The notes below the pieces were generated by a model. That model was not told where the DNA came from. It searched no databases and saw only the letters and a list, made by a program, of their open reading frames with translations. DNA of 21,371 bases from IMG/VR virus record IMGVR_UViG_3300035698_032126, positions 1-21,371 of that record; one strand, written 5' to 3'. Below, in pieces: positions 3,477 to 21,371 of the stretch; positions within the stretch are counted from its first letter, which is position 1, and each line of letters opens with the position of its first letter. This DNA is from a virus. Made by a program: the position numbers and the translations under genes.

Positions 3477-3489
3477 TCGCGGGGTCGGC

Positions 3490-6048: not shown

Positions 6049-6097
6049 GCGATCTCGAGCCCGACGTGACGGCAGGAGCCATCCTGGCCTATCATTG

Positions 6098-6136
6098 GCC
6101 CCGCGCCCTGAGTCATCAGGCGCGGGGCTTTTTTTT
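6098..6136 (+). terminator. strong rho-independent terminator after the head module
   Basis: Perfect 10-bp GC-rich stem, GCCCCGCGCC (6098-6107) with GGCGCGGGGC (6119-6128), an 11-base loop, then eight T (6129-6136). It ends 10 bases before ATG 6147 of the glycosyltransferase-like gene, so it separates the head genes from the following genes and probably reduces their expression compared with capsid. Confidence 0.9.
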
Positions 6137-6146
6137 ATCCATTTCT

Positions 6147-6833: not shown

Positions 6834-6836
6834 GCC

Positions 6837-7163: not shown

Positions 7164-7570
7164 ATTCAGAAATCGAACGCGCCTTCGTCGCCGCCCTCCT
7201 CCCCGTCATGGATCCTCTCGAGGTCTTCTCCGGGCTCTCCGCCGAGCTCGTGCTGCCAGATATTGCGCGCCTGATCGTAGATGCCACGGCAGACAATGAG
7301 AGCCCGGTCTCCACACTCTGGCGGATGCCGCTCAACGTCCGCCTCGATTTTCCAGCCTTGCAGGAAGGAGGAAATCCCGAGGGCGACCTCCGCGCCGCCA
7401 TGTCCACCCTGCTCCTCTGGTTTCAGGATCAGAGTGCCGTCCTCGCCGCATTCAGTTCCACCGAGGTGGCCCTCATCCCCGGCTGGTACGTCGGCCACGT
7501 GCGCACTCGCACCGAGGCCGACCGCCTCATCGCCGAGCTCGAGGTCACCATCGGCCTGCGCGAAATTTGA
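7160..7570 (+). CDS. tail completion/terminator-like protein (tentative)
   Basis: A 136-aa protein overlapping the previous gene by ATGA. The sequence 'LPDIARLIVDATADNESP' followed by alternating strands and a helix ('AAMSTLLLWFQDQSAVLAAF') and a final strand 'RLIAELEVTIGLREI' fits the alpha/beta pattern of tail terminator proteins (lambda gpU type), which cap the tail tube and join it to the head. Position directly upstream of the tail-tube candidate agrees. The stop codon TGA lies in a TTTGACA motif. A gpZ-type or other minor neck protein is the alternative. Confidence 0.45.
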   Translation: MNSEIERAFVAALLPVMDPLEVFSGLSAELVLPDIARLIVDATADNESPVSTLWRMPLNVRLDFPALQEGGNPEGDLRAAMSTLLLWFQDQSAVLAAFSSTEVALIPGWYVGHVRTRTEADRLIAELEVTIGLREI

Positions 7571-7572
7571 CA
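7566..7572 (+). promoter_or_regulatory. TTTGACA leader motif before the tail-tube candidate
   Basis: TTTGACAAC contains the TGA stop (7568-7570) of the preceding gene. Here the next ATG (7627) is farther away, after a pyrimidine-rich leader. TTGTAT (7584-7589) is too close for a standard -10. Confidence 0.4.
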
Positions 7573-7626
7573 ACCTCCCCTCCTTGTATGCACCCCGCTC
7601 GCACAGTATCTCAACCCTAAAAAATT

Positions 7627-7950
7627 ATGGCCGTAACCTTTGGAATCACCAATCACGCGGGAGCCCTCGTCGAAAGCCTCGATGTGGAGAAGACCATCGA
7701 GACAGCCGTCCTCAAAGGCTCCGATGGAGTGGACAAACACGTCCATAACTTCAATCCCTTAAAAAAGTTTTCCCTCAAAACTCGTGGAGATGTCAGCGCG
7801 CTCGATGTGGGAGTGGGAGATCCCGGCATCACCGGCATCACTGGCGGCATCTCCGTCATCGAGTCGGTCAAAGACGGCGAGGTCAACACCGATTTCCCTT
7901 CCGCTGAAGCCAGCGGGACGAACTATCCCAGCGCGACCGAAGTCGAATAA
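7627..7950 (+). CDS. candidate major tail tube protein (107 aa)
   Basis: This small beta-rich protein (FGITNHAGALVESLDVEKTIETAVL...KKFSLKTRGDVSALDVGVGDPGI) lies immediately before the tail assembly chaperone genes, the standard position of the tube subunit. 'HNFNPLKKFSLKTRGD' recalls the beta-sandwich core of tube proteins. At 107 aa it is shorter than most tube proteins (about 130-250 aa), so a minimal tube or a partner protein should be considered. Its leader (pyrimidine-rich, then CCCTAAAAAATTATGG) resembles those of the capsid and cement genes, consistent with high expression. The stop TAA shares a base with the ATG of the next gene. Confidence 0.5.
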   Translation: MAVTFGITNHAGALVESLDVEKTIETAVLKGSDGVDKHVHNFNPLKKFSLKTRGDVSALDVGVGDPGITGITGGISVIESVKDGEVNTDFPSAEASGTNYPSATEVE

Positions 7951-8402
7951 TGAGCGACCCCTCCCGGCGGAGCTTTGTCTCTCTCAACGTGCCGGTCGAA
8001 GAGCGCGCCGACCTCCGAGCCTTCGTCATGGCCGCCGCCGTGCTGGGCATCCCGCTCGCGCCCATCAATGACTTTGTGGAATACCGCCGAGTCGATGCCA
8101 CGGGGCAGCCGAAGCAGACCGTCTCCTGGTTTCTCGCGCAGCGCGATCCCACCGGGCGCTACAAAACCAACGCCCTCTACCGCCAATGGCGCGACCCCGC
8201 CTGGCTGGCCGCGAATCCCGAGCACCCCCTCGCCCTCATGCGCGCCTACTCCGCCGCCCTGCGCGCAGGCGAGGCCCACGAGGCCACCGGCGGGCTCATC
8301 CTCGCCGCCATCACCCGCGGGCAGAAACACGCCCACATCCCGCTGAACACCGATCTCGACCCCGTCCGCAAACAGCAACTCCTCGACATGCTCGACAAAT
8401 GA
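7950..8402 (+). CDS. unknown tail-module protein (150 aa)
   Basis: Starts by TAATG overlap with the tube candidate and ends by ATGA overlap with the chaperone gene, so it is co-translated with both. It has an N-terminal segment (SFVSLNVPVEERADLRAFVMAAAVLGIPL), a beta/helix middle (VSWFLAQRDPTGRYKTNALYRQWRDPAWLAANP) and a helical C-terminus (HPLALMRAYSAALRAGEAHEATGGLILAAITRG). I recognise no family. Most siphoviruses place the chaperone directly after the tube, so an extra gene here may be a third tube-associated or chaperone-like factor. Confidence 0.7.
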   Translation: MSDPSRRSFVSLNVPVEERADLRAFVMAAAVLGIPLAPINDFVEYRRVDATGQPKQTVSWFLAQRDPTGRYKTNALYRQWRDPAWLAANPEHPLALMRAYSAALRAGEAHEATGGLILAAITRGQKHAHIPLNTDLDPVRKQQLLDMLDK

Positions 8403-8815
8403 CAACCCAAGAACGCGCCCTCCTCAATGCCGACACCATGCACGACGACCACGACCGCACCTTCTGCGGCGTCGAACTCGCGCCCGTCACCGTCTGTGCC
8501 CGCCGCTACATCGAGCGGATGCTCTTTCGGTACAACCAGATCGGGGCCACCCCCAAAGAGATCGCATTTTCCTACGCATTTCTCCTCACCCACACCCTCC
8601 CCGAGATGCGGCGCCTCTCCCGTAGCCTCGATGATTTCGAGATCGCGATGGACAAATGGCTCCTCACCCTGCCAGATCCCCTCCCGGCCTCCGAGCTCAC
8701 CCAGCTCGAGGCCATCGTCGAGACAGACATGCGAGTCCTTGAGGCTGCCGCCATCGAGATCAAGCCGAAACCCGGCCAGGCTACCGCGGAAGCGGGCGCG
8801 CCCCCAAACTCCTAG
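8399..8815 (+). CDS. tail assembly chaperone, upstream frame (lambda gpG-like)
   Basis: A 138-aa mostly helical, acidic protein. The start ATG 8399 overlaps the previous stop (ATGA); longer in-frame readings run through that gene. Genes at this place in siphoviruses code the chaperone that binds the tape measure while the tail tube polymerises. The last codons contain the heptamer C CCA AAC (8803-8809) followed by TAG at 8813 and a stem-loop, so a fraction of ribosomes should shift -1 and add a second domain. Identity comes from position, size and the frameshift architecture rather than sequence similarity. Confidence 0.75.
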   Translation: MTTQERALLNADTMHDDHDRTFCGVELAPVTVCARRYIERMLFRYNQIGATPKEIAFSYAFLLTHTLPEMRRLSRSLDDFEIAMDKWLLTLPDPLPASELTQLEAIVETDMRVLEAAAIEIKPKPGQATAEAGAPPNS

Positions 8816-9006
8816 AGCCGGATCCGCTCGCCCAGGCCGTCTTGGCCTTGGCCCGCGAATCCGGCTGGACCGAAAGCTACATCCTGGAAACTTTGCCACT
8901 CGCCCGGCTCATGCTCTACATCCATGCCCTCCACTGGGCCAAGGGCGACTGGACCGTGCCTCCCACCGCCTCAGTAGACGACCAGTTGGCCGTGCTGGGT
9001 CTTTGA
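8399..9006 (+). CDS. tail assembly chaperone, -1 frameshift fusion (gpGT-like)
   Basis: Slipping -1 on C CCA AAC (8803-8809) leads into the frame running to TGA 9004-9006, adding about 65 residues (KLLEPDPLAQAVLALARESG, then a helical stretch with ESYILETLPLARLMLYIHAL and a short tail) for a product of about 202 aa. That frame has no good start of its own: it is open only from 8743 and has no credible start before the overlap. The added domain resembles the second domain of GT-type chaperones, which recruits tube subunits. In lambda G/GT the shift is also -1, at GGGAAAG. The stop TGA at 9004 lies in a TTTGACT variant of the leader motif. Confidence 0.8.
8803..8866 (+). promoter_or_regulatory. 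programmed -1 ribosomal frameshift signal (slippery heptamer plus stem-loop)
   Basis: C CCA AAC (8803-8809) fits the X XXY YYZ rule in the chaperone frame. After a 6-base spacer that contains the zero-frame stop TAG (8813-8815) comes an 8-bp perfect stem, AGCCGGAT (8816-8823) with ATCCGGCT (8859-8866). It encloses an inner hairpin AGGCC (8834-8838) / GGCCT (8844-8848). Spacing and order are as in known -1 signals. Confidence 0.8.
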
Positions 9007-9008
9007 CT
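9002..9008 (+). promoter_or_regulatory. TTTGACT variant of the leader motif
   Basis: TTTGACTTC contains the TGA stop (9004-9006) of the chaperone fusion and lies 14 bases before ATG 9023. It differs from the other six copies by one base. Confidence 0.3.
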
Positions 9009-9022
9009 TCGCTCCCACTGTG

Positions 9023-9661
9023 ATGATCAAGGCCGACATTAAAATCGACACCCGCGACTTCCTCCGTGCCCTCGAGCGGTTTTCGGAGAATTCCAAGCGC
9101 ACGAAGAAGGAAATCCTCCGCCAACAGGCGAAGCTCTTCATCCGCGACGTGGTCAAGATCACCCCGCCGAATAAAAACTTCGGCTACAACAAGCCCGGCG
9201 GCGAGGCGGCCATCCGCAACGATCTCGGCAAGCTCTTCTTCAGCTCGCCCCGAGGGATCACAGATCCGGGCTCCGCCCATCGGCAGCATCGGAATAGCCA
9301 AGGGCGCGTGGGCGGCCGGATCGAAAACAAAATTGCGGTGAAAGGCCTGGCCGCCTATCGGAAAAAAATCTTCGCGAAAGTCGGCATCCTCGCCAGCGGG
9401 TGGAATGCTGCCGCCCGTCGGCTGGGGTTGGTCCTCCCCGCCTGGATCTCTCGCCACGGCACCCGCCGAGGCCGAGTCGTCATCAAGACCGACGCCACCG
9501 GCATGAGCATCGAGGTCGTCAACTCCGTCCGCTTCGCCGGCGACGTGAAAGGCATCGACCGCCGCATCGCCTCCGCGCTGAGAAATCGCGCTCGGCAGAT
9601 GGATAAACAAATGGACGCCTTCGCCGTCAAACGTGCCGCCCGCGAGGCCGGGCTCACCTGA
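9023..9661 (+). CDS. tail completion protein, HK97 gp10-like (212 aa)
   Basis: The pattern 'ILRQQAKLFIRDVVKITPP' followed by a Gly-rich loop and a helix, then 'GILASGWNAAARRLGLVLPAWISRHG' and a final beta/helix region is typical of HK97 gp10-type (gpZ-like) tail completion proteins that act at the head-tail interface. It is very basic. ATG 9023 is preferred; a GTG directly before it (9020) is also possible and would add one residue. Its place after the chaperones and before the tape measure is unusual, since gp10-like genes normally lie upstream of the tube gene. Confidence 0.6.
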   Translation: MIKADIKIDTRDFLRALERFSENSKRTKKEILRQQAKLFIRDVVKITPPNKNFGYNKPGGEAAIRNDLGKLFFSSPRGITDPGSAHRQHRNSQGRVGGRIENKIAVKGLAAYRKKIFAKVGILASGWNAAARRLGLVLPAWISRHGTRRGRVVIKTDATGMSIEVVNSVRFAGDVKGIDRRIASALRNRARQMDKQMDAFAVKRAAREAGLT

Positions 9662-9677
9662 TCTCCTCCGCTCCCCC

Positions 9678-9707
9678 TTCATACTTCATAATTCATAATT
9701 CATAATT
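9678..9707 (+). repeat. 7-bp tandem array TTCATAM before the tape measure gene
   Basis: Four consecutive heptamers (TTCATAC, then TTCATAA three times, 9678-9705), ending in TT, in the 53-bp gap between 9661 and ATG 9715. The unit is the same as in the right arm of the inserted element at 13877-13904. Confidence 0.85.
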
Positions 9708-9714
9708 TTCTTAA

Positions 9715-11388
9715 ATGGCCAAAGAAATCCCCGTCAAATTTTCCTACCGCGACAAAGGGCTCGCGGGAGTCGCCTCCCGACTCGATGCCGTCTCCAACCG
9801 GGTCAACAAAAAATTCGGCGGCCTCTCGAAGTTTAATAACTCCATGAACAAGCTGGGGCGATCCTTCGCGCCCCTCATGAACGTCGCCAAGGGAGCCGCC
9901 GTGGCCGTGGGTGGCCTCCTCCTCGCGTCCGCCGGACTCGGAGCCGGGTTCAAAGGAGCCCTCGATGCCGGAGGGCGCCTGAGCGACCTTTCCTCCCGCA
10001 CCGGTATCGCCGCCGATAAACTCGCCATCCTCGAGCAAGCATTCAAAAATAATGGCATGGCCGCCGAGCAAGTCGGGCCAGCCGTCAACAAACTCCAGCG
10101 CGCCGTGGTCGAGGCCGGGCAGGGGCTCACCACATACCAGCGGGCCTTCGACACCATCGGCGTCTCGTGGAAAGACCTCGAGAAGATGTCTCCCGACGAG
10201 CAATTCGACGCCGTGCGGACAGCCCTCGCCGGCATCGCCGATCCGACCGCCCGGGCCGCTGCCGCCATGCAGATCTTCGGTCGCTCCGGCGGGCAGATGC
10301 TCACCCTCTTTGCCGATGGTGGGGCCATGACCGAGGCTGCCCGCAACGTAGGCGAACAGGCCACCATCCTGCGCGACAACGCCGATCTCTTCGATAAAAT
10401 CTCCGATCAACTCGGCCTCACCGGAGTCAAGACCCAGGGATTCTTTGTCGGCATGGCCGAGCAAATCGCCCCCGTCATCCAGCCCTTGATGGACTTCTTC
10501 TCCGGGACCGACTTTGCCCAGACCGGGCGACAATTCGGGGCAGCGATTGCCCTCGGCATCCAGGCCCTCACCGATGGGAGCATGTGGAGCATCTTGCTCA
10601 CCAGCGCCCAAGTCACCATCGGCACCGCCATCAACTTCCTCTGGGCCGCGCTGAGGTCGGTCCTCGTGGGTACAGGGCAACTCCTCGTCTCAGCCTTTCG
10701 GGTCGCCATGGACATGTTCTCCATCCTCGGCAAATCCGAGTTCTGGAGCGGCATGGGCAATCAGCTCCTCGCCATGGTCAATGGATTCGCCGCCGTCTTC
10801 TACGGCGTCTTTGCCAAAATCGTCGAGATGATGCGGCCCATCCTGAGCAAAGTCGGTCTGGGAGGGGTGGTCGATTCCATCTCCGGTGGACTCCGCGGAG
10901 CCGAAAAAAACACCGCCGATGCCGCAGCCCAACAATCGGCAGCAGCAAAGCAGGCACAGACCCCGTTCAATGAGCAAATCAAAACCCGTCTCACCGACGA
11001 AGCCAAAGCCATCGGCGATTCCATCACCAATGGCTTCGCCAATGCCGCCGACATCACCGGCACCGGGGCGGCCCAAGACTCCCTCGACAGTCAACTCGGC
11101 ACCCTGACCGACAAAGTGCGTAAGCTGCAAGACGCCGCCCTGGGCAAAGGAGCCAAAGACAAAGGGATCCGCCCCGATGGCGCAGACGGCGGGGATGCCG
11201 CAGGCAAAGGCGGTCGCCCCACCGCCTCGCGGCTCAGCGCGATCTCAGGTTTCGGCGTCTTCGTGAAAGACCCCATCCTGGCGGAGAATCGCCGACAGTC
11301 CCAGCTCCTCGAAAAAATCGCCAAGAATACCGAGGACAAAAAAACCGTCAACCGGCCGATGCAAGATTTGACTCTCAAGTTCTCTTGA
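9715..11388 (+). CDS. tail tape measure protein
   Basis: A 557-residue protein that sets tail length and is ejected with the DNA. The N-terminus is helical and basic, followed by a Gly/Ala-rich hydrophobic segment (VAKGAAVAVGGLLLASAGLGAGFKGAL in outline), then 'GRLSDLSSRTGIAADKLAILEQAF...NKLQRAVVEA' and 'TALAGIADPTARAAAAMQIFGRSGGQML', which are standard tape-measure patterns (TGI...L..L..A.., ...R...A..IFG..G..ll). A second hydrophobic region lies around residues 280-385. The C-terminus has a Gly/Asp-rich linker and 'ILAENRRQSQLLEKIAKNTE', another typical ending. By the rule of about 1.5 angstrom per residue the tail would be near 80-85 nm. Start ATG 9715 follows the heptamer array; no Shine-Dalgarno. 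Confidence 0.93.
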   Translation: MAKEIPVKFSYRDKGLAGVASRLDAVSNRVNKKFGGLSKFNNSMNKLGRSFAPLMNVAKGAAVAVGGLLLASAGLGAGFKGALDAGGRLSDLSSRTGIAADKLAILEQAFKNNGMAAEQVGPAVNKLQRAVVEAGQGLTTYQRAFDTIGVSWKDLEKMSPDEQFDAVRTALAGIADPTARAAAAMQIFGRSGGQMLTLFADGGAMTEAARNVGEQATILRDNADLFDKISDQLGLTGVKTQGFFVGMAEQIAPVIQPLMDFFSGTDFAQTGRQFGAAIALGIQALTDGSMWSILLTSAQVTIGTAINFLWAALRSVLVGTGQLLVSAFRVAMDMFSILGKSEFWSGMGNQLLAMVNGFAAVFYGVFAKIVEMMRPILSKVGLGGVVDSISGGLRGAEKNTADAAAQQSAAAKQAQTPFNEQIKTRLTDEAKAIGDSITNGFANAADITGTGAAQDSLDSQLGTLTDKVRKLQDAALGKGAKDKGIRPDGADGGDAAGKGGRPTASRLSAISGFGVFVKDPILAENRRQSQLLEKIAKNTEDKKTVNRPMQDLTLKFS

Positions 11389-11389
11389 A

Positions 11390-12094
11390 ATGAGCGAGGA
11401 CTACGAGCGGGAGATTTTTGGCAGCAGCGGCGTGGTGGATGAAATCGGAGTGGTCACGCACACCGTGCCCTACTACGCTAAGACGCGGGAGGAATGCCTC
11501 ACCGTGGCACGGGGCCGCCGAGTGGACGGGGTGCCGGAGAAGACCCGCTCTTATTCCCACTTCGAAGGAGGGCTCTACACCGTGACCGTAATTTACGAGG
11601 GCCAGAAAGAACCCGGCTCCGATCCCAAGGACATCCAATACAGCCTGCGCGGCAGCTACGAGGAAGAGGCCATCGAGGCCAACCCGCAGATCAAAGAGTT
11701 GATGAAAAAATACGGAGGTGTGCTCAAGGATGGGCGGGTCGTCTTTGACCCGACATACCAGGAAGCTGCCTCCAGTGGTCTCGGGCTCCTCAAAGGCGAT
11801 TCTGCCGAAAAAAAAAACCCCATGTTCGGGGTGGAAAAATACAAGAAGCTCGGAGTCGTCTGGCAGCGCACCTACGCCGTCAGCGCCATCCCCTCCGGCC
11901 TGCTCACAAAAGTGGGCAAAGTCATCGATTCCCCGCCTGGGTCTCCGCCGGAACTCAAGGGTCGCACCAAGTGGCTCATGATGCCACCGACCGCAAATAT
12001 CCGCGGCAACGTGACCGAGGTGACCGAGGAGTACTTTTTACTCGATGAAGAGATAGCCGATGGCGTCTACAAACAAGAGAGCGACATTACCTGA
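11390..12094 (+). CDS. minor tail protein candidate (234 aa)
   Basis: ATG 11390 is one base after the tape measure stop, indicating coupled translation. The protein is acidic with beta-rich stretches (GVVDEIGVVTHTVPYYAKTREECLTVARG, YSHFEGGLYTVTVIYEG), a helical middle and a final strand region (TANIRGNVTEVTEEYFLLDEE). In siphoviruses the genes after the tape measure encode distal tail and tip proteins. I recognise no family, so the role is inferred from position. Confidence 0.7.
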   Translation: MSEDYEREIFGSSGVVDEIGVVTHTVPYYAKTREECLTVARGRRVDGVPEKTRSYSHFEGGLYTVTVIYEGQKEPGSDPKDIQYSLRGSYEEEAIEANPQIKELMKKYGGVLKDGRVVFDPTYQEAASSGLGLLKGDSAEKKNPMFGVEKYKKLGVVWQRTYAVSAIPSGLLTKVGKVIDSPPGSPPELKGRTKWLMMPPTANIRGNVTEVTEEYFLLDEEIADGVYKQESDIT

Positions 12095-12714
12095 TGGACA
12101 TCCGTGATCTGCTCGTGAGGAGTGGGGATCCGGTGCTGCCCGCCGTCAATCGGCTGGCCCTGGCCCAGCGCGCCCTGCGGCTCCTTCCCGGTCGTGGCAT
12201 CCTCCTCTCGCAGATGCCAGGGGGCGTGAGCGTGAGTGCCCGCTCCGCCGTGCGCGGCTTCTCGGGGGCTTGGGCCGTCGCCCTGAGCGGGCGATCTGCC
12301 ACCATCAGCCTGGGGTTCGTCGATGGGCTCGAACCCATACTCGATGGCAAACTCCTCAGCGGCGTCGATGCCAAGGGCAACCCGCTACCGGAGGGTGCGC
12401 CCCGCCTGAAGCTCACCCCGGAAGAATTCACCCCCGCGGGCAAAAGCTGGATCGCCATCCGGGCCGAGACCGATCCCGAGACCGGCCGGATCCTCGCCCC
12501 GAAAGACCAGCCGCCCAAGCTCACCCTCGTCCAAACAAAAACCCTCTTCAGTCCAGAGAAAGACACCGTCGCCCTACATGCCGTCGCCCTGCTTCGTCGC
12601 CCCGCCAAGGACAAGCAAGGCCTCGGCACCGTCCATCAAATCGCCTTCTTCGACTACCAGCACCGCGCCGCCAAACAAGAGGGCCGCTGGCGGCATTTCT
12701 TCACGCCAGCGTGA
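12094..12714 (+). CDS. minor tail protein candidate (206 aa)
   Basis: Starts by TGATG overlap with the preceding stop. The first half has a hydrophobic helix region (PVLPAVNRLALAQRALRLLPG), then repeated short strands (GGVSVSARSAVRGFSGAWAVALSGRSATISLGFVDGL), consistent with a beta-rich tail tip component. The C-terminal part (VALHAVALLRRPA, VHQIAFFDYQHR) is unfamiliar. No family recognised. The final codons form one arm of a perfect inverted repeat (12697-12718). Confidence 0.65.
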   Translation: MDIRDLLVRSGDPVLPAVNRLALAQRALRLLPGRGILLSQMPGGVSVSARSAVRGFSGAWAVALSGRSATISLGFVDGLEPILDGKLLSGVDAKGNPLPEGAPRLKLTPEEFTPAGKSWIAIRAETDPETGRILAPKDQPPKLTLVQTKTLFSPEKDTVALHAVALLRRPAKDKQGLGTVHQIAFFDYQHRAAKQEGRWRHFFTPA

Positions 12715-12718
12715 AGAA
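12697..12718 (+). other. perfect inverted repeat at the gene end
   Basis: TTCTTCACGC (12697-12706) and GCGTGAAGAA (12709-12718) are exact reverse complements separated by 2 bases. The stop codon (12712-12714) lies in the right arm. No T-run follows directly, so it is a weak terminator candidate or an RNA-processing hairpin. It joins directly to the heptamer array starting at 12718. Confidence 0.5.
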
Positions 12719-12745
12719 TTTCAGATTTGAAATTTGAGATTTGAG
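12718..12745 (+). repeat. 7-bp tandem array ATTTSAR
   Basis: Heptamers ATTTCAG, ATTTGAA, ATTTGAG, ATTTGAG at 12718-12745, ending 9 bases before ATG 12755. The reverse complement of the unit (YTSAAAT) is related to the AATYTCM array at 16530-16564. Confidence 0.8.
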
Positions 12746-12754
12746 ATTATCGGA

Positions 12755-13747
12755 ATGAACTTTCTTTTGTCGCGCAACTGGAACACCAAAGTCCTCGAGC
12801 CCCATGCCCAGTGCATCGCTCGCTCCGGAGCCCGCACGCATGTTTCCCACTCCTCCGAGGGGCAAGTCATCGATCTGACCGGCTCGGCCCTCTGGCGGCA
12901 TCCGTGGTTTACGGATCCGGCGTGGAATCCAAAACAGAACCGCTGGGAGGCCACCGTCAATCCAGGGCTCGTGAATGGCGAAGATCCACTCGTGCCCGGC
13001 GCCGAGATCGACGGTCTCGATGAGCCCGGCCTCCTTGATGCCAAGGCCCTGCCCCTGCACCGGCTCCGGAGCGTGCCGGGCGAAGAGGAGCGGGTCGATC
13101 CCTACTTCGCCGCTCTCGGGGTGCGCGAGCCGGAAAATCCCTTCTCCATTTCCGCGCTGGGGCGAGTCACCCTCGATGCCACCACGCGCGAGGATGAAAA
13201 CCCGCTCCCCCCTCGCGCCCTCGTGGCGATGGATTTTTATCTCACCGTCGCGCGGGCCACCTATGAGCCGCAGGTATCCGTCGTCGATGCCTCGGGTACC
13301 AGCGGGCAAGTCGTGGATTATTCCGTCACCTTCAACACCGACAACCTCCGGCGCGTTGGCCCCCGTGCGCGGCTGATGCAGGCGGCGAAGTTTCCCGCGC
13401 CCCGCATCCCCACCTTCCAGGACCGCCTGGCCGGAGACTACCAGGCCGAAGGGGAAGATCGTCAACTCGTCTCCACCGTCTATCTCCTCTCCCCCCCGAA
13501 CCAACTCGCAGGAGAGCCCGATGCCACCTGGACCCCCTACGTCCGCCATGCCATCTTCTGGAACCTCGCGCATGCCGCCCGCAATCTACCTCCACAGAAC
13601 GCCAAGCCGCAGCGTTTCCAAGGCACCGGCCTCCCCCTGGCCGACATGCTCATCGGCCCCTGGCTGGCCCTGCAAAACGAGCTTTACCAAAAGGTTCTCA
13701 ACGCCTTCAACACCACCTCCAACGAAGGCAGATTCTGGACCGTGTAG
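12755..13747 (+). CDS. minor tail protein candidate (330 aa)
   Basis: ATG 12755 is preferred to an in-frame TTG inside the heptamer array at 12734. The protein begins MNFLLSRNWNTKVLEPHAQ and has a Trp-rich first part (LWRHPWFTDPAWNPKQNRWEATVNPG in outline), many Pro/Leu loops, 'ALVAMDFYLTVARATYEPQVSVVD' as a beta region and a helical end ('GPWLALQNELYQKVLNAFNTTSN'). No family recognised. Located between tape measure and tip/fibre genes, it is probably a distal-tail or hub component. Its stop is followed within three bases by the inserted repeat element. Confidence 0.7.
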   Translation: MNFLLSRNWNTKVLEPHAQCIARSGARTHVSHSSEGQVIDLTGSALWRHPWFTDPAWNPKQNRWEATVNPGLVNGEDPLVPGAEIDGLDEPGLLDAKALPLHRLRSVPGEEERVDPYFAALGVREPENPFSISALGRVTLDATTREDENPLPPRALVAMDFYLTVARATYEPQVSVVDASGTSGQVVDYSVTFNTDNLRRVGPRARLMQAAKFPAPRIPTFQDRLAGDYQAEGEDRQLVSTVYLLSPPNQLAGEPDATWTPYVRHAIFWNLAHAARNLPPQNAKPQRFQGTGLPLADMLIGPWLALQNELYQKVLNAFNTTSNEGRFWTV

Positions 13748-13749
13748 AA

Positions 13750-13904
13750 AATTATAAATTATGAAGGATGAAGTAAGAAGTGGGCCGCTTCGCGCCCGAG
13801 TGCCGCGCTCCCGCGCGGAAGAATTTCCAACCGCGCTCCCAGGCGAAGCCTGGCTCGCGGGGCCTCCGGGCCCCACTTCATACTTCATAATTCATCCTTC
13901 ATAA
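13750..13904 (+). repeat. inverted-repeat, hairpin-rich intergenic insert (MITE/REP-like)
   Basis: The left arm has heptamers AATTATA, AATTATG, AAGGATG, AAGTAAG, AAGTGGG (13750-13784); the right arm has TTCATAC, TTCATAA, TTCATCC, TTCATAA (13877-13904) preceded by CCCCAC. The arms are imperfect reverse complements. Between them are three hairpins: CCGCGC/GCGCGG (13803-13818), CCAGGC/GCCTGG with a GAA loop (13839-13853) and GGGGCC/GGCCCC (13859-13874). No ORF longer than a few codons is convincing. The layout suggests a non-autonomous dispersed repeat of the host or phage genome. Confidence 0.75.
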
Positions 13905-13910
13905 TTTTCC

Positions 13911-14072
13911 ATGTTCGGCATCAACAAAGCCTCCCGCCTGCGGGCCGAATTCGAGACCGAGGGTCGGGTCGAAGCGCCCGCGCCCCTTGATCCCCAGTTT
14001 CCCTATGAGGTCCGGCCCTTCGATGCGGCATTCTTTGGCGTGAGTCTGGCCAGCGAGCCCGAGGAAGAATGA
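13911..14072 (+). CDS. short acidic ORF (53 aa) after the repeat element
   Basis: ATG 13911 to TGA 14070-14072 gives a 53-aa protein: MFGINKASRLRAEFETEGRV..., a Pro-rich middle, and an acidic end (SLASEPEEE). The codon pattern with many C/G third positions resembles the neighbouring tail genes, and it starts six bases after the repeat, so it may be real. It could be a small tail-associated protein, or the remnant of a gene cut by the insertion. I recognise no family. Confidence 0.5.
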   Translation: MFGINKASRLRAEFETEGRVEAPAPLDPQFPYEVRPFDAAFFGVSLASEPEEE

Positions 14073-14084
14073 CCTCTCTGCAGG

Positions 14085-14091
14085 TTTGACA
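14085..14091 (+). promoter_or_regulatory. TTTGACA leader motif before the tip/fibre gene
   Basis: TTTGACAAC lies 14 bases before ATG 14106, in the 33-bp gap. The leader TTTGACAAC...CCCGCATTGATG is close to TTTGACAAC...GGCACGATTGATG before ATG 19800. Confidence 0.5.
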
Positions 14092-14105
14092 ACAAACCCG
14101 CATTG

Positions 14106-16529
14106 ATGCGCGCGCTCCTCTTTGTTGGCCTCCATGATGGCCGGGTCTATTCCTCCGCTTCGGGCAGCGGATATACCTTCCCAAAATACCGGGCGCGGCA
14201 GACCCGCACCTATGCCCTGCGGTTCCTAAACCTCGTCAATGGAGTCGTGGTGGAAGAAGAACTCCACATCCGCTCCCTCAAGGCCTCCATCGGCTGGATC
14301 GAGCGGCCACCGGTCTCCGGGCAATGGAAAGTCAAAGTGGGCGTGGCCACCACATCGGCCACCAATACGACCACCCTCCTCGAGCACAACGTCAGCCAGA
14401 GCGAGATGCAAACGAGGCTCAATGCCGTCGCAGACCGCCCCGATGATTTCCGGGTCCTCCGCGTCGGATCCGGCTGGCTCCTCGGGCGGGAGGATGGCGC
14501 GGCCGTCGAACTCTCCATCGTCGAAAACACCCTCGATCCCCTCAGCATTGCCAGTATCGAGGGCAACCAAATCGCCGGCGACTGGTGGTATGAGCTCAAA
14601 CTCCTGCAAAGCCCCCTCGCCTTCACCGACAGCTCCGCCCAAGTCCTGCCAGCGGCCCCCACGATAGAGACCCTCGTCGATGGTTACACCGATCCCAGCG
14701 GCACCTATTTTGTCAACGAGATCCAGAGATTCCGCCTCCCCGCAGATTTTCGATCCCTCTTCTATTTTCGCTACAATTCCGAGCGCACCGATCTGCTCTC
14801 CGTTGAGGACGGGATCGATAAATACAAAACCGTCCTCGACGCCATCCTTGCCCGCGATGGGGCCTTCGTCGCCACCCGCAACCCGCAAACGAACGTCGTG
14901 GATATCGAATTCCAGGGCGAACTCTCCGGCATTGATGTCGACCAGCTCGAGATCGTCGTGCCGCCCGAGTCCACTCCGCCAGGAGACCAGACCTTCACGC
15001 TCGATCTCGGGCTCTGGCCCATGCTCGCCGCCCTCCGGGGCATCGACGAACTCAAAGACGTGCCCTTCGAGGTCGAAGCCGAGGTCGTTCCCAACGCTGC
15101 CGATATCGACGATCTCGACGTCGAGGCCCAGCCCATCAAGCTCTTCAACGTGCCGGTCGGAGTGGCCGCCCCACTCATCTGGCCAGCCCTTGCCACCGCG
15201 CAAGACATCCCCTGGCTGCGCGGCCCCGCTCCGAAAAACTACCTCCCCTCCGTGCCGGATCAAATCCTCACCGGCCAGCAACAAGCCTATCCCACCGTCG
15301 TGGGCAACGGGGTCCTCACCGAATTCGTGATCGATCACAACCTGGGAACCGAAGTCGCCTATGTCATCGTCCGCGAAAACGAAGTCGACGGGCGCATCCT
15401 CCTCCCCTCCGAATACACCGTTACCGTAGGCTCGGCCGATTCCCTCACCGTTACCTTCGATCTCGCGCCGTCCGCATCGGCCCTCCTCGTCAACATCGTC
15501 GGCATCGGGCCGGCCAGCGTCTTCCAGGCGCACACCCACACCATCGCGCAGGTCGATGGCCTGCAAGACATCCTCGACGACTACGGCAGCTCCATCGCCG
15601 ATCTCCTCGCCATCCTGCCGAGCACTGGGCCGGGAGTCACCTCCACCAGCAGCACCGGCATGGTGACCCTCCTGCCGCAACTCGCGGAAATCCTCCATCT
15701 CCCCGGAGGCGATTACCTGAGCGAAGGGGGGGGGCTCGATCCTGCCAGGCTCCCAGACCGCGCCCCCTACATGCTCCCGGCCATCCACGATGGCACCGTG
15801 GACACCCTGCCCGATCCGCTTCCCGACCCCGCTGCCAATGCGGGCAAAGTGTACCAAAACGAGACCGGGGCCGCCGTGCTCATCCCCGGCGGAGGGGGCA
15901 TTCGATCCTCCTACGTGGCCGACGATGGCTTCGTGGGTTGCGATGGCCGCACCCTCTTCCCCGCCATCCGCGATGGGGCGACGAATTCCTACTACCCGTC
16001 CCGCTTCGAGCGCACCCTCTTCACCATGGCGGTCAACGACAAACAACTCGCCGTGGGGCGCACCCTGGCCGTCGAGTTCGCCGTCCATTTGCAACTCGCC
16101 CGGGCCGCCCGCAATGCCGACCTCTTCAGCCAGGCGCAATGGGTCTTCCTCCTGGAGCTGGGCACCGCTCCGGCGGACACCACCCCCGATCCCGTCGGGC
16201 TCAACCTCTCCAGCATCGCCTGGTCCGCCACTCCCATCTTCGAGCAACGCATCGTGCTCGATCCGCTCTTCCGCTCCCATGCCTTCGGCGTGCGCATCGC
16301 GAGAGTCACTGGCGGTCTCAGCCTCGACCAACAAATCTACGGCATCTGGAGTGGCAACAACGCCGCCGCTCCCGCCAGCGCAAACTTCGTCCTCCGCGCC
16401 CGCCTGACCCGTTTCGATACCGAGAACAACCAGCCTCTCGCACGCGGCTTCGTCTTCCTCGGCCTCTCCGCAGGCCTCGAAGCCGATGGCAAAATCAAAA
16501 CCGCCCCAGCCCAAGCCGTGATCTCCTAA
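14106..16529 (+). CDS. tail tip/fibre protein (808 aa reading from the upstream TTG, 807 aa from ATG 14106)
   Basis: ATG 14106 is chosen over the adjacent TTG 14103. Residues 1-380 form a beta-rich region without recognised family (the early part reads GLHDGRVYSSASGSGYTFPKYRARQTRTYALRF in outline). Around residues 395-460 is a domain beginning VVGNGVLTEFVIDHNLGTE..., known from many phage tail and fibre proteins as a small adaptor domain. Around 476 is HTHTIAQVDGLQDIL, the H-T-H plus 'DGLQ..LD' trimeric fibre signature. A Pro/Gly-rich linker (about 560-600) leads to a C-terminal domain (SYVADDGFVGCDGR...LARGFVFLGLSAGLEADGK) that may be the receptor-binding part. Role: distal tail/fibre component in host recognition, by position and motifs. 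Confidence 0.8.
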   Translation: MRALLFVGLHDGRVYSSASGSGYTFPKYRARQTRTYALRFLNLVNGVVVEEELHIRSLKASIGWIERPPVSGQWKVKVGVATTSATNTTTLLEHNVSQSEMQTRLNAVADRPDDFRVLRVGSGWLLGREDGAAVELSIVENTLDPLSIASIEGNQIAGDWWYELKLLQSPLAFTDSSAQVLPAAPTIETLVDGYTDPSGTYFVNEIQRFRLPADFRSLFYFRYNSERTDLLSVEDGIDKYKTVLDAILARDGAFVATRNPQTNVVDIEFQGELSGIDVDQLEIVVPPESTPPGDQTFTLDLGLWPMLAALRGIDELKDVPFEVEAEVVPNAADIDDLDVEAQPIKLFNVPVGVAAPLIWPALATAQDIPWLRGPAPKNYLPSVPDQILTGQQQAYPTVVGNGVLTEFVIDHNLGTEVAYVIVRENEVDGRILLPSEYTVTVGSADSLTVTFDLAPSASALLVNIVGIGPASVFQAHTHTIAQVDGLQDILDDYGSSIADLLAILPSTGPGVTSTSSTGMVTLLPQLAEILHLPGGDYLSEGGGLDPARLPDRAPYMLPAIHDGTVDTLPDPLPDPAANAGKVYQNETGAAVLIPGGGGIRSSYVADDGFVGCDGRTLFPAIRDGATNSYYPSRFERTLFTMAVNDKQLAVGRTLAVEFAVHLQLARAARNADLFSQAQWVFLLELGTAPADTTPDPVGLNLSSIAWSATPIFEQRIVLDPLFRSHAFGVRIARVTGGLSLDQQIYGIWSGNNAAAPASANFVLRARLTRFDTENNQPLARGFVFLGLSAGLEADGKIKTAPAQAVIS

Positions 16530-16564
16530 AATCTCAAATTTCCAATCTCCAATCTCCAATCTCC
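16530..16564 (+). repeat. 7-bp tandem array AATYTCM
   Basis: Five heptamers: AATCTCA, AATTTCC, then AATCTCC three times (16530-16564), starting within the TAA stop of the fibre gene and ending 4 bases before ATG 16569. Arrays of the same unit length lie at 9678, 12718, 13750 and 13877. Confidence 0.85.
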
Positions 16565-16568
16565 GCCC

Positions 16569-17549
16569 ATGTCCGCACCCGTCATCTCAGCCTCAAGTTC
16601 GATTCTCGGATTCAAGAGAAACGAAGAATTTAATTTTCAACCCGCCGCCACGAATGCGCCGGTGATCTGGGAGGGGATCGGATTGCCTCCCGGAGTGACG
16701 GTGGACACCCAGGAAGTGAAGGCGGTGACTGGCGCGGAAGCGACAGATATCCTCACGAGTGCCGGGCATGGATACGCGAATGCGGATCGGGCCTATTTCC
16801 CGGCGCTGACAGGCGGCAGTGGGCTGACGGCCGGAACAATCTATTACGTGCGAGACAAGACGGATGATACGTTCAAGCTGGCGTCCACGCTGGGCGGCGC
16901 GGCGGTGAATTTCACCACGGATGTTACGGCGGGCCAGGTGCGCAAGGTGTCCTCAGGCATGCTCTCTGGAGCGTGCTCTGTGACCGGCACGTATGTGGTG
17001 ACGCTGACGGCCGTAAATGCGGCCGCCGAGAGCGGCAGTCGCCAATTTGTCATCGGGATCGACTCGGCGACCGCAGCGGACGCGGGCACCGGCGGCACGG
17101 CGATGGATTGGGAAATCGAGATGCTGGACCGCACGGTGGCAGGGGGGGGCAGTGCCGGGGCGCAGGCCGTGCTCGCCACCTGGAAGGAGGATGATGTCGT
17201 CATGGTCGCGATCCGATTCAACAAGTCCGGAGTGCCGGTGGATCCAGATCCGGACACGCTCCGGTTGGTGCTGAAGGAAATGGAGCCGGAAACGATGCTG
17301 GTGGAGGCGACGGATTTTGAAAAAATCGGCGATGGTGCGGAAGCGTATTTTAATCTCCCGGTCTCGCTCACCGGCCCGCTGCTGGCTGCGGCCCTCTCGA
17401 ACCATGAGGAGGACGAAGGCACTGGGTTTGACGCGCTGGCGGAAATCGAGTGGACCAGCGACGTCGTGCATAAAGGGACCCCGCTGGTTCTGAAGGGATC
17501 GACGAAGACTTTCAAAGTGCGCGTGGAACGCGACATCGCCGAGGGGTAA
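16569..17549 (+). CDS. Ig-like (putative-Ig/He_PIG type) tail protein with a nested domain
   Basis: 326 residues. The segments 'NFQPAATNAPVIWEGIGLPPGVTVDTQ' (about 22-48) and 'SSGMLSGACSVTGTYVVTLTAVNAAAESGSRQFVIGI' (about 128-164) are the two halves of a putative-Ig domain, which usually runs straight through GLPPGLxLD-TGxISGTP. Between them lies an insert of about 77 residues: 'TDILTSAGHGYANADRAYF...LTAGTIYYVRDKTDDTFKLAST' (about 59-107), a small beta module common in phage tail proteins. The rest ('WEIEMLDRTVAGG...DDVVMVAIRFNKSG') looks like a further beta domain. It follows the fibre gene and begins the G-rich block. Function: probable tail adhesion/adaptor protein. Confidence 0.75.
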   Translation: MSAPVISASSSILGFKRNEEFNFQPAATNAPVIWEGIGLPPGVTVDTQEVKAVTGAEATDILTSAGHGYANADRAYFPALTGGSGLTAGTIYYVRDKTDDTFKLASTLGGAAVNFTTDVTAGQVRKVSSGMLSGACSVTGTYVVTLTAVNAAAESGSRQFVIGIDSATAADAGTGGTAMDWEIEMLDRTVAGGGSAGAQAVLATWKEDDVVMVAIRFNKSGVPVDPDPDTLRLVLKEMEPETMLVEATDFEKIGDGAEAYFNLPVSLTGPLLAAALSNHEEDEGTGFDALAEIEWTSDVVHKGTPLVLKGSTKTFKVRVERDIAEG

Positions 17550-17553: not shown

Positions 17554-17781
17554 ATGACCTGGGCTGACCTGGCACCACTAGCACGCGGGGGGCAGATGCT
17601 GCGGCGCAAGGCGTGGAGCGCGGACCCCGCTCGCTCCGACGCGCGAATTTTCTTTTCCGCCGGAGCCGGGACCACGCGCACGGTGGCGGTCTATCGCTTG
17701 GGCGCAGCGGAAGCGGTGGTTACCACGGCCGACTTCGCGGAAGCTGATTTTTTAGCGGACGATTGGGAGCTGGCATCATGA
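17554..17781 (+). CDS. Tad2-like (DUF2829-like) small protein
   Basis: 75 residues, read from ATG 17554 with GAGGGG just upstream; the stop overlaps the next gene's ATG (ATGA). The N-terminus 'WADLAPLARGGQMLRRKAWS' matches the F-x-x-A-L-x-x-L-x-x-G-x-x-V-x-R-x-G-W start of the DUF2829 (Thoeris anti-defence 2, Tad2-like) domain, and 'DFLADDWEL' matches its D-L-L-A-x-D-W-E end. The middle contains AGAGTTR.VAV, shared with the second copy in the next gene. Tad2 proteins bind the gcADPR signal of Thoeris defence; whether this version does is unknown. Its place in a tail cluster suggests instead a structural use of the domain. The family call is from pattern memory. Confidence 0.55.
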   Translation: MTWADLAPLARGGQMLRRKAWSADPARSDARIFFSAGAGTTRTVAVYRLGAAEAVVTTADFAEADFLADDWELAS

Positions 17782-19256
17782 GCTTGATCCCGGTGGAATT
17801 GCGCGCGAACCCGGTGGAGGTGGCGGGTCGCACAATGCGGGAGCTGGCCTTGCCTGGTCGGGTGACGGTGGGCTTGACTGGCTATGGGCGGATCGACGGT
17901 GGAGGGATCTCGGTGGTGGGTCAAGGTCGGCAAATGGCGGCTGTCGGCGTGACACGGTTGGAGCGGCGGGGCGACCGGATCTGGGGGGTGCCTTGTCGCG
18001 GGAGGGGGCCGGTGCCCGTCGGTCTTTCGATGAGTTTCTCTGTTCATACCGGTTTCATGCCAAACGGTCCGGTGGGGACGTATCGTAGCGGATCATTCGC
18101 AGCTCCGGTCTCGGGGAAAGTAAACTTCATGGGGGACGTCGATAATTACTTGCAGGTGGATGGGGTGACGGCGTTGAGCTATGGCTCCGGCGCAGATGTC
18201 CGAAGTTATTCTAAGCGGGTGGTCGCAGGGCAGGTGATTCGGTGGGCTGCGGTGAATACGGGGGGCTTCGCGGGAGGGAGTTTTACGGTCTGGTTTGATG
18301 AGGACATGGTTTGGTCGGTGGGATCGGATCAGCCCCCAAGAAAGCACTCGTATGTTTTTCCGTTGCGTAAGGGCGAGACGATTATTTTCACGAATCCGTT
18401 TCCGGAATCGCATCGGGTGCGGGTTACGGGGTTGCTGCCATCGGGGGGGGCGGTAGGATGGGTTTCTCAGGCGAGTGACTCTAGGGCTCGTGGGGTGGCC
18501 GTAGCCGATAAGGTTTACCTCGGGGCTTATGAGACGACCGAGTTTTTTAGAGTGAGTGAGTCGTATAATGTCCCGCTGGCGAAGCTGCTCACACGCGCGA
18601 ATCAACCGGTGGGTGATGCTGATCGCGTAGATGAGGAGTGGGATGTGCCGCGTGGCGGGCGTTTTTTCATTGAGTCCGGATCCGCATCGTCGCTCATGAG
18701 TGCGAGATTCCTCGACGTGGTGGCGGGGCCTATTTTGCAGGCTCCGCTGAGTGCTGCAAAAGCGGGCGCGATCCAGGCTCTGGAGTGGGCGGCGGCGGGC
18801 TCTGGGGTGCCTTGGCGGCTGGTAGAGGCATCGGCGCGTGCGGGCTCTTGGGTCCGGCGGAATGGCTGGGTGGAATATACGCGCAGGATCCGCTTCGTCG
18901 CTGGGGCGGGCACGACCCGAGCGGTAGCCGTGGATGAGGCCGGCGAGGTGCTGACGCCATCTGGGTTTGGAGCTGCCGAATGGCTGGCTGGGGACTGGAT
19001 GGTGTGGGATGACGAGGAGCCTGCTCCGGTGGATGTCAGTGATTGGGTCTTCTCGGGCGGCGCGCAAACGATTGCTTTTGCGGTGGCGGCAGCGGCGGTG
19101 ACATCTGGCGAGAGTAGCGGTGGAGGGAGTCCTGAAGGCTTGGGCGGTGAGGGCTCGCCGCTTGCGAGCTTGGGTGAGGGATTCGTTTATCGGCAGGATG
19201 GCGTGGACATCCTGGTGCCAGCGCAGGATATCAATGGAGATTCGTGGCGGCCATGA
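17778..19256 (+). CDS. large tail-block protein with embedded Tad2-like domain (492 aa)
   Basis: ATG 17778 is chosen because it overlaps the previous stop (ATGA). Residues 1-75 are beta-rich and Gly-rich (GYGRIDGGGISVVGQGRQ). The middle (about 80-330) has many strands (SFSVHTGFMPNGP, GQVIRWAAVNTGG, GETIIFTNPFPESHRVRVTG) and looks like a beta-sandwich tail/appendage protein of unknown family. Residues about 346-411 repeat the layout of the preceding small protein: 'WRLVEASARAGSWVRRNGW', AGAGTTRAVAV, 'WLAGDWMVW'. The C-terminus has an Ala-rich strand segment, a Ser/Gly linker and 'GFVYRQDGVDILVP'. The DNA is G-rich on this strand, unlike genes before 16530. It could be a receptor-binding or adhesion protein. 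Confidence 0.65.
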   Translation: MSLIPVELRANPVEVAGRTMRELALPGRVTVGLTGYGRIDGGGISVVGQGRQMAAVGVTRLERRGDRIWGVPCRGRGPVPVGLSMSFSVHTGFMPNGPVGTYRSGSFAAPVSGKVNFMGDVDNYLQVDGVTALSYGSGADVRSYSKRVVAGQVIRWAAVNTGGFAGGSFTVWFDEDMVWSVGSDQPPRKHSYVFPLRKGETIIFTNPFPESHRVRVTGLLPSGGAVGWVSQASDSRARGVAVADKVYLGAYETTEFFRVSESYNVPLAKLLTRANQPVGDADRVDEEWDVPRGGRFFIESGSASSLMSARFLDVVAGPILQAPLSAAKAGAIQALEWAAAGSGVPWRLVEASARAGSWVRRNGWVEYTRRIRFVAGAGTTRAVAVDEAGEVLTPSGFGAAEWLAGDWMVWDDEEPAPVDVSDWVFSGGAQTIAFAVAAAAVTSGESSGGGSPEGLGGEGSPLASLGEGFVYRQDGVDILVPAQDINGDSWRP

Positions 19257-19735
19257 GGGAGGCGATGATGGTGGCCGCTGGCCGGGTGAGGATTCGGGAT
19301 GGCGCGGTGCTGGTGGGAGTCGGCCCTACCTGGCCGGTGACGATCTGGGTGCATGGTGGCTCGAACACGCATCCCACTCCGGCTTTCACCGGACCCTATA
19401 TTTCCAAGGTGGTTTCGAGCATGGAGGGGTGGGGCCACGTGGGCGTCAATCGTGGTGGTTATTCGTCGCTGGAGATCGCTGCGGAGGATGCGGCGGGAGT
19501 TGTCTGGGCGGCCGGAAGCGTGCGGTCCACCGTAGGGAGCCCGCCTGCGTATCACTGGCAGGATGATGCTCGGGGATATGCGCTGGGGTTGAAGCCAGGA
19601 TGGATTCCGTGGGCCTACTACACAATGCTTCCGGGGTGGGTGCTGCAACGGGATTACAACTCGGGAGGCCTGAGGTTCCCCTATCCGGGCTACCGGGTGG
19701 AGCGGCGAGGGGATTTTTACGTGTTCGCACCTTAG
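19253..19735 (+). CDS. hypothetical protein (160 aa) of the G-rich tail block
   Basis: ATG 19253 overlaps the previous stop (ATGA); earlier GTG 19244 lies within the previous gene. The protein is rich in Gly, Trp, Tyr and Pro (ISKVVSSMEGWGHVGVNRGG, YHWQDDARGYALG, PWAYYTMLPGWVLQRDYNSGG, YRVERRGDFYVFAP), suggesting a beta-rich surface or carbohydrate-binding protein. No family recognised. It shares the G-rich composition of the two genes before it and probably works with the 492-aa protein. It ends the block; the next gene returns to C-rich usage. Confidence 0.6.
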   Translation: MREAMMVAAGRVRIRDGAVLVGVGPTWPVTIWVHGGSNTHPTPAFTGPYISKVVSSMEGWGHVGVNRGGYSSLEIAAEDAAGVVWAAGSVRSTVGSPPAYHWQDDARGYALGLKPGWIPWAYYTMLPGWVLQRDYNSGGLRFPYPGYRVERRGDFYVFAP

Positions 19736-19785: not shown

Positions 19786-19799
19786 ACCCGGCACGATTG

Positions 19800-20495
19800 A
19801 TGTTCGCCGTCGATCTCGATCTCCTTGTTATTACCCAGTCCGTCGTGGCGCGGACAGCCCTCGCCCGGGTGACCTTCGTGACTCGCAACAATCGCCGCGT
19901 GCCAGTGCAATTCTTCCGCCCCAGCCTCGTCGGAGCCGTCGAGCTCGCCACCGGATCCACCGGTCAGATCCTGATCAAAAAGCAGGGCACCCCCGCCGCG
20001 GGCGCGCTGGCCCGCGCGCTCACCTGGACGAAGGAAGGCAGCGGGACGGGCACCGTCTATTGGTTCGAACTCAATCTTTTCACCGACGAGCTGAACACCG
20101 CCTTTGCAGAAAACCCCGAGAGCCTGAGCGACCTCGTGCTCGAGATCACCTTCGTGGAAAACGCGAATGTGCAGACCGCCCCCGCCATCCCCTGCACGAT
20201 CTGGAACCGCTACCTCCAGTCCGATGAGGACGAGCCGACTCCTGCCGATCCGGACATGCCCGCCGCAGCGGACATCCTCGTTAAAATTGCGCAGACCCTA
20301 ACGGAAGGCGAAAAGACCCAGGCGCAGACAAATCTTGGGCTGGTCTCGATGATGTTTCGCGCCCCGGTGGCGGCCGAGCCGACCGCTTTCGATGATGCCG
20401 GAGCCCTGGGCGATTATCACTTTGCCGCCGCGAGCGGAAAACTCTGGACCCATACGGGCACGCAGTGGGTCTATGCGCGCTTCATCTCCGAATAA
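19800..20495 (+). CDS. baseplate/fibre-associated protein (231 aa)
   Basis: ATG 19800 is taken rather than the adjacent TTG 19797. The N-terminal part (RNNRRVPVQFFRPSLVGAVELATGSTGQILIKKQG, then ARALTWTKEGSGTGTVYWFELNLFTDELN) is beta-rich and recalls N-terminal baseplate/upper-fibre domains. The later part contains LTEGEKTQAQTNLGL (about 161-175), a very common fibre motif, and 'GDYHFAAASGKLWTHTGTQWVYA', a terminal domain of tail-associated proteins. Codon usage returns to the C-rich style of the structural genes. It precedes the next gene by 8 bases. Function: tail tip or fibre adaptor, by motif and position. Confidence 0.65.
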   Translation: MFAVDLDLLVITQSVVARTALARVTFVTRNNRRVPVQFFRPSLVGAVELATGSTGQILIKKQGTPAAGALARALTWTKEGSGTGTVYWFELNLFTDELNTAFAENPESLSDLVLEITFVENANVQTAPAIPCTIWNRYLQSDEDEPTPADPDMPAAADILVKIAQTLTEGEKTQAQTNLGLVSMMFRAPVAAEPTAFDDAGALGDYHFAAASGKLWTHTGTQWVYARFISE

Positions 20496-20503: not shown

Positions 20504-21371
20504 ATGAAAACCATCTTGCTGCTCCTCCTCCTCGCCAGCGCCTCGCTCCTGCAGGCGGATGCCTTAGTCTATACCTTCACCGGCACGAGCGGAAAACCCC
20601 AAGAAGGCAGCCTCACCCTCACGCCTAGCACCACCCTCCGCGTGAGCGCGGGGGGAGCGGTGGAGGTCCTCAGCTCCGCAGATTTCCGCACCGCCATCGG
20701 CCTGGGCGACGCGGCAGAAAAAAATGTAGGAACGACCGCGGGCACCGTCGCGGAGGGCGATGATGCTCGCATCATTGCTGGCGGCACCGCCCTCCAGCCA
20801 GCAGGGGACGGCTCCGGCCTTGGTGAAATGACCAAAGCCCAAGTGGGCCTCAGCAACGTGGACAACACCAGCGATGCCACAAAAGACGCTACGACGGCAA
20901 CGCTCACCAACAAGACCCTCACATCTCCGGTCATCAACACCCCTACGGGCCTCGTCAAAGGTGACGTGGGGCTCGGCAATGTGGACAACACCAGCGATGC
21001 AGATAAGCCCGTTTCCACCGCAGGTCAGACCGCGCTCGACCTGAAGCTCGACGACAGCCAAGCCAGCTCCTTCGGCCTCACCCTCTTGGACGATGCCGAT
21101 GCCACGGCTGGCCGCGCTACGTTGGGCCTTGTGATCGGCACGAATGTCCTAGCACCGGCAGGCGACGGCTCCGCGCTCACCGGCCTAATCTGGTCGCAGA
21201 TCGGCAGCACGCCCACGACGCTCTCCGGCTACGGGATCACCGATGCGGTGGGCACCGGAGGCAGCCGGGCCGATCTCACCGGAGGCAGCGGCTCTCTGGA
21301 CCTCGCCGCATTTACTCTCGGCCTGCCTGCTGACGTGACTCGCCTGGGCAGCTCCATTGACCTAGCGAGCG
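20504..21371 (+). CDS. tail fibre protein with N-terminal signal peptide, 3' end beyond window
   Basis: ATG 20504 begins an open frame that runs to the end of the window (about 289 codons). Residues 1-20 (MKTILLLLLLASASLLQADA) have a Lys, a hydrophobic Leu core and an A-D-A end, a standard Sec signal peptide. The rest has typical fibre repeats: 'FRTAIGLGDAAEKNVGTTAG', 'AEGDDARI', 'KAQVGLSNVDNTSDATKD', 'GDVGLGNVDNTSDADKPVS...TAL', and 'TTLSGYGITDA', found in trimeric tail fibres and pyocin fibres. A secretion signal on a fibre is unusual for phages. The next domain, probably receptor-binding, is not visible. Confidence 0.85.
   Translation, partial: MKTILLLLLLASASLLQADALVYTFTGTSGKPQEGSLTLTPSTTLRVSAGGAVEVLSSADFRTAIGLGDAAEKNVGTTAGTVAEGDDARIIAGGTALQPAGDGSGLGEMTKAQVGLSNVDNTSDATKDATTATLTNKTLTSPVINTPTGLVKGDVGLGNVDNTSDADKPVSTAGQTALDLKLDDSQASSFGLTLLDDADATAGRATLGLVIGTNVLAPAGDGSALTGLIWSQIGSTPTTLSGYGITDAVGTGGSRADLTGGSGSLDLAAFTLGLPADVTRLGSSIDLAS
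20858..20877 (+). repeat. 20-bp direct repeat in the fibre gene, copy 1
   Basis: GTGGACAACACCAGCGATGC recurs exactly at 20981-21000 and encodes the VDNTSDA part of the fibre repeat. Confidence 0.85.
20981..21000 (+). repeat. 20-bp direct repeat in the fibre gene, copy 2
   Basis: Exact copy of 20858-20877, 123 bp downstream and in the same reading frame, so loss or gain of 41 codons by recombination would keep the fibre frame. Confidence 0.85.

Follow-up and report, generated by a model that had tools for sequence, protein, structure and literature searches.

Free and fused copies of a domain with a likely Tad2-type fold in the tail operon of an uncultured siphovirus

The tail gene cluster of an uncultured siphovirus encodes two copies of one small domain, one as a free-standing protein (P0001) and the other embedded in the protein encoded by the next gene (P0002), and structural modeling makes it likely that this domain has a Tad2-type fold. 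Other phages employ this fold in sponges that capture bacterial immune signals. The explanation preferred here, which is given about an even chance, is that a diverged Tad2-fold module has been reused as a part of the tail, with the free copy perhaps assembling onto the fused copy.

Results

The two copies are one homologous domain

The DNA analyzed here, referred to as the window, is an IMG/VR virus record of 21,371 bases, in which a long run of tail genes is found on the plus strand. It encodes a lambda-type portal protein (PF05136, E 5e-54), a GP7-type major capsid protein and a tape measure protein (phrog_8462, E 2e-20). The portal and the major head protein have their best matches in Akkermansia phages (27-28% identity), which gives no more than a hint of a host in the Verrucomicrobiota. 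A glycosyltransferase-like protein (positions 6066-6833; phrog_1574, E 3e-30, and a weak Anp1 match) is encoded between the head and the tail genes, and at 20504-21371 a tail-fibre-like repeat protein starts with the signal-peptide-like sequence MKTILLLLLLASASLLQADA, which is unusual for a tail fibre. The features of the region of interest are as follows.

16569..17549, plus strand: upstream tail gene, 326 aa, the conserved left flank (phrog_9370 tail fibre, E 5e-6; match in contig L039)
17554..17781, plus strand: P0001, free-standing protein of 75 aa with the predicted Tad2 fold (PF11195, 12.7 bits; AlphaFold2 model)
17659..17679, plus strand: AGAGTTR loop in the free copy (its residues 36-42; 7/7 residues shared with the fused copy)
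17778..19256, plus strand: P0002, tail-cluster protein of 492 aa with an N-terminal β-rich part and the embedded domain (ORF, translation and low-confidence model)
18813..19001, plus strand: embedded domain with the predicted Tad2 fold, P0002 residues 346-408 (45% identity to P0001)
18900..18920, plus strand: AGAGTTR loop in the fused copy (P0002 residues 375-381; from sequence)
19253..19735, plus strand: protein of 160 aa directly downstream of P0002 (ORF only, without family match)
19797..20495, plus strand: protein of 232 aa, the right flank (weak local match in L039)

The layout of the two reading frames is as described in an earlier, sequence-only reading of this DNA, and the ATG of P0002 at 17778 overlaps the stop codon of P0001 as ATGA. 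That reading had also proposed a shared layout of the two segments, and indeed each of the motifs ARxGxxxRRxxW, AGAGTTRxVAV and LAxDW is found in both the free and the fused segment, which are 45% identical over 62 residues (BLASTP, E 2e-11). The Smith-Waterman score of the two segments is 111, compared with a mean of 28 (sd 5.3) and a maximum of 59 for 2000 shuffled sequences. When the free copy is used as the query against the whole record, exactly two loci are found, at 17554-17778 and 18813-19001 (the latter with E 1.1e-8), and a two-sequence HMM detects no third copy in any ORF of the window or of L002, a contig that overlaps it. As judged from these comparisons, the copies are one homologous domain, present in one free and one fused form, and both the homology tests and the gene context uphold the earlier claim of such a pair inside a tail cluster.

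The codons of the two copies agree at 59-62% of the first and second positions and at 25% of the third positions, and in the AGAGTTR loop all seven residues are identical while all seven codons differ. The third positions are thus randomized and the first and second positions are kept, which points to an old duplication that is retained at the protein level and not at the DNA level; both copies appear to be maintained by selection acting on the protein. In the full-length model of P0002, which has a pLDDT of 31 and is used for the order of elements only, β-strands are predicted at residues 58-250, and the helix/strand order of the embedded domain is the same as in the free copy.

The pair sits in a variable slot amid conserved tail genes

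Over the initial 7.7 kb of the window, the contig L002, from another IMG/VR record, shares 7,728 of 7,729 bases with it and therefore belongs to the same virus; it stops short of the tail genes holding the pair. One real relative, the 48.5 kb contig L039, is found via its tape measure protein (42% identity). L039 is collinear with positions 1670-17549 of the window, including the portal, the tape measure, the tail-tip proteins and the gene upstream of P0001. On the left flank, positions 16569-17549 match L039 16468-17466 (31% identity, E 2e-17), and on the right flank the similarity of the gene at 19797 to L039 19846-20802 is local and weak (E 3e-4 over 41 residues). The pair is therefore located inside a tail operon between conserved tail genes, the conservation on the right being weak. 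Between these flanks L039 has two other proteins, of 439 and 344 residues, where the window has P0001, P0002 and the 160-residue protein, so that the slot filled by the pair is variable within an otherwise conserved tail operon. Distal tail or receptor-binding proteins would typically be encoded in such a slot.

The N-terminal 92 residues of the 439-residue protein of L039 look Tad2-like by eye; this candidate was rejected, as 42 of 200 shuffled sequences score as well against the pair. A PF11195 search of the L039 record gives no match.

Structure prediction points to a Tad2-type fold

The AlphaFold2 prediction of the free copy was made with an alignment of the two copies only, having no Tad2 sequence in it, and without templates. 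The resulting model, with a pLDDT of 67 and a pTM of 0.51, is moderately confident; along the chain its elements are helix, strand, short helix, strand, strand, helix and strand. When it is compared with the PDB by VIA-align, the first ten entries are Tad2 structures, two of which bear the title AcrIIA7, superposing over 68-69 residues with Z 7.0-7.7, values which, being below 8, can come from a common arrangement. After the Tad2 entries follow a neck protein of phage 812 (Z 5.3) and mitoribosomal proteins (Z 4.0 and below). With Foldseek, five Tad2 chains are retrieved with probabilities of 0.90-1.00 and everything else with 0.15 or less, and in the BFVD the top four matches are named Thoeris anti-defence 2-like. 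A sequence search of the PDB returns nothing relevant.

PF11195 is the sole Pfam match of the free copy; it is weak (12.7 bits, curated cut-off 25), although it covers positions 1-72 of the 73 of the profile. For the fused copy the Pfam search gives no PF11195 match, so that neither copy reaches the cut-off. For further comparison, 15 phage Tad2 proteins were used (that of SPO1 and 14 others). When the pair is aligned with this set by HHalign, a score of 29.1 (probability 69%) is obtained, whereas 300 column-shuffled versions of the pair average 10.0 and reach 20.5 at most. Each copy singly also beats all 300 shuffles, but over a short C-terminal stretch. An HMM of the Tad2 proteins ranks the free copy first among 297 ORFs of the window, yet with an E of 0.13. 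In SPO1, a second weak PF11195 match, to a lysine-rich protein of 138 residues, covers profile positions 3-28 only and is considered to be a chance match.

Because the Z scores may reflect a common arrangement, the case rests chiefly on two independent lines, profile and structure, which concur from the N-terminal helix through LAxDW, and on the drop in score that follows the Tad2 entries. A Tad2-type fold is likely for the modeled domain. The earlier assignment to the Tad2/DUF2829 family is thus borne out as regards the fold, for which the PDB, BFVD, Foldseek and HHalign comparisons make Tad2 the most likely choice and the model of the free copy retrieves Tad2 first, and it fails as regards a significant Pfam match.

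Relatives of the free or the fused protein were searched for in IMG/VR, GTDB genome contigs, phage records and plasmids, and none was found; a phage search with E up to 10 gives three partial matches at chance level. Nine viral contigs with DNA encoding AGAGTTxxVAV turned out to hold methyltransferases and chance matches, with no convincing relative among them. In L033 (IMGVR_UViG_3300032284_002307), a minus-strand frame of 106 residues contains IAFSAGAGTTKAVAV, which closely resembles the domain's conserved strand and loop; the R..W before and the DW after it are both missing, and the resemblance, having come from the motif scan itself, is likely to be due to chance.

Two family-wide Tad2 motifs are absent from the free and the fused copy

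According to a review, the gcADPR pocket of the Tad2 sponges is made up of the loops β1-β2 and β3-β4, strand β4, the loop β4-α3 and helix α3, while an insertion between β2 and β5 forms the cyclic-dinucleotide site (PMC12043709). The GWNG motif of the first loop and the W[VL][PA]SxxD motif before the last helix, both in loops that are described as pocket-lining, are each present in 15/15 phage Tad2 proteins and in 0/2 of the copies described here. At these sites the free copy has KAWSAD and TTADFAEADFLADDW, and the fused copy has NGWVEY and TPSGFGAAEWLAGDW. The R..W in strand 1, the hydrophobic frame and the terminal LAxDW are kept in both copies, and the cyclic-dinucleotide insertion is absent from both. 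With both motifs lost in both copies and the insertion absent, canonical gcADPR sequestration appears unlikely, and the step from the fold to this activity, as taken in the sequence-only reading, is not supported. The loss of the motifs means that the family signature is gone; it does not follow that no ligand is bound. The AGAGTTR sequence is a new, conserved loop of the copies' own. Because the profile cut-off is not reached and the two family-wide motifs are missing, the pair should not be filed as Tad2 family members, but as a diverged branch with a Tad2-type fold.

Discussion

A diverged Tad2-fold module as a proposed tail part

In the preferred explanation, the late tail operon holds both products of an ancient duplication of a Tad2-type domain (helix, three-stranded sheet, short helix and a last strand with LAxDW), one being the 75-residue protein and the other lying inside the next, translationally coupled protein. 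Both have lost the family-wide sponge motifs and share the AGAGTTR loop. The fused copy would belong to a variable distal-tail protein. The free copy probably binds to the fused one via Tad2-like oligomer contacts, and the resulting unit would decorate or stabilize the tail tip or join in receptor contact. Both proteins would then be present in the virion. The more specific proposal, that an immune-evasion fold has been converted into a virion tail part in which a free subunit docks on a fused copy of itself, is tentative and falls somewhat short of an even chance.

The preferred explanation may gain support from a known virion protein with a Tad2-like arrangement, the neck protein of Staphylococcus phage 812 (8qkh_S, 152 residues, L027:6431-6889). 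The N-terminal part of this protein, residues 17-90, can be superposed on the free-copy model with a Z of 5.3, which may be chance. It differs in having no sequence similarity, in coming from a contractile-tail phage and in being located in the neck and not in the distal tail, and it is not accepted as a homologue. In the paper describing this structure Tad2 goes unmentioned (PMC12886913).

Alternative explanations

It is conceivable, but unlikely, that the pair is an anti-defence sponge with an altered ligand, where the free copy, and perhaps a particle-delivered fused copy, binds an immune nucleotide different from gcADPR and AGAGTTR is the new contact loop of a rebuilt pocket. The known sponges share the fold, the free copy has the size of a sponge, a conserved Gly/Thr/Arg loop could hold a phosphate, and the Tad2 members already vary in their ligand, SPO1 Tad2 binding gcADPR and MoTad2 binding His-ADPR (PMC13299392). 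Such a sponge would, however, have to function without GWNG, without W[VL][PA]SxxD and without the cyclic-dinucleotide insertion (PMC12043709), and from within a tail operon where its gene is translationally coupled to that of a large tail-cluster protein. Of the two options that had been offered earlier, a structural or ligand-binding reuse of the predicted fold appears to fit better than a virion-delivered anti-defence activity.

The coupling of the two genes is also what would be seen if the free copy were an assembly chaperone, a late non-virion helper which covers the fused domain's partner surface up to the point where the tail protein is put in place: a small gene lies directly upstream of its presumed client, overlaps it and encodes a protein homologous to a part of it. 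Tail-fibre chaperones are not usually known to be paralogues of a domain of their client, and this explanation is considered distinctly unlikely.

The variable slot downstream of the tail tip, and a loop that is identical despite saturated silent sites, would also agree with a receptor- or small-ligand-binding domain, where the two copies, without mutual assembly, would each recognize a surface sugar or metabolite via AGAGTTR. This is considered to be quite improbable, as a free 75-residue protein without an attachment domain would need a partner in the tail. It is very improbable that the Tad2 link is an artefact, in which a duplicated small α-β domain of another fold looks Tad2-like only in an uncertain model: the pLDDT of 67, the Z below 8, the Pfam score below the cut-off and the HMM E of 0.13 would allow this, but profile and structure concur from the N-terminal helix to LAxDW, none of the 300 shuffles is as good and there is a clear gap after the Tad2 entries in two structural searches.

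Comparison with known systems

With the Tad2/DUF2829 proteins (PF11195; SPO1 Tad2, MoTad2, HgmTad2 and SptTad2) the free copy shares its size and the predicted fold over 68-69 of its 75 residues, and both copies share the R..W near the start and the LAxDW at the end. The Tad2 proteins are further characterized by a homotetramer with two gcADPR pockets and by the inhibition of Thoeris. The two copies differ in being below the Pfam cut-off, in having neither GWNG nor W[VL][PA]SxxD nor the β2-β3 insertion, and in their setting, where one copy is fused to, and the other coupled with, a tail-cluster protein.

A Tad2 domain within a longer phage protein is also found in Pasteurella phage Pmp13 (OR544130, L010:7-564), whose protein of 185 residues joins PF13876 (3.6e-29) to a Tad2-like PF11195 domain (2e-25). 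In this fusion the Tad2 motifs are intact and the partner is another small sponge-family domain and not a tail protein. The PF13876 family has been named as an Acb4 anti-CBASS sponge (PMC11722364), and, from its domains, the Pmp13 protein is possibly a double sponge against CBASS and Thoeris. Since Tad2 fusions to other small domains exist, the fusion as such is not new. In the open-access literature searched, no report was found of Tad2 or DUF2829 domains in tail proteins.

Several of the phage Tad2 proteins (L011:76-303, L013, L022 and L023) share an N-terminal domain of ~75-100 residues (IGTK...GYLVEY...GYISWSPK..F), which Pfam does not recognize in the two proteins tested. In Caudoviricetes sp. 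vir215 (L017:304-537), an archaeal virus with Methanomassiliicoccales as the host, a Tad2-like gene overlaps the start of an annotated tail protein gene, which is the same kind of neighborhood as that of the pair in the window.

Implications

At present, a Tad2-like profile or fold readily earns a small phage protein the label anti-Thoeris. The pair suggests that the fold also occurs without the sponge motifs and in a tail setting, and therefore the fold alone should not be read as anti-defence. If the preferred explanation is true, the Tad2 fold would be not only a sponge but also a module for tail assembly or contact. The pair also raises the question of whether the tail part or the sponge is the older, and it provides a two-gene system for testing this order.
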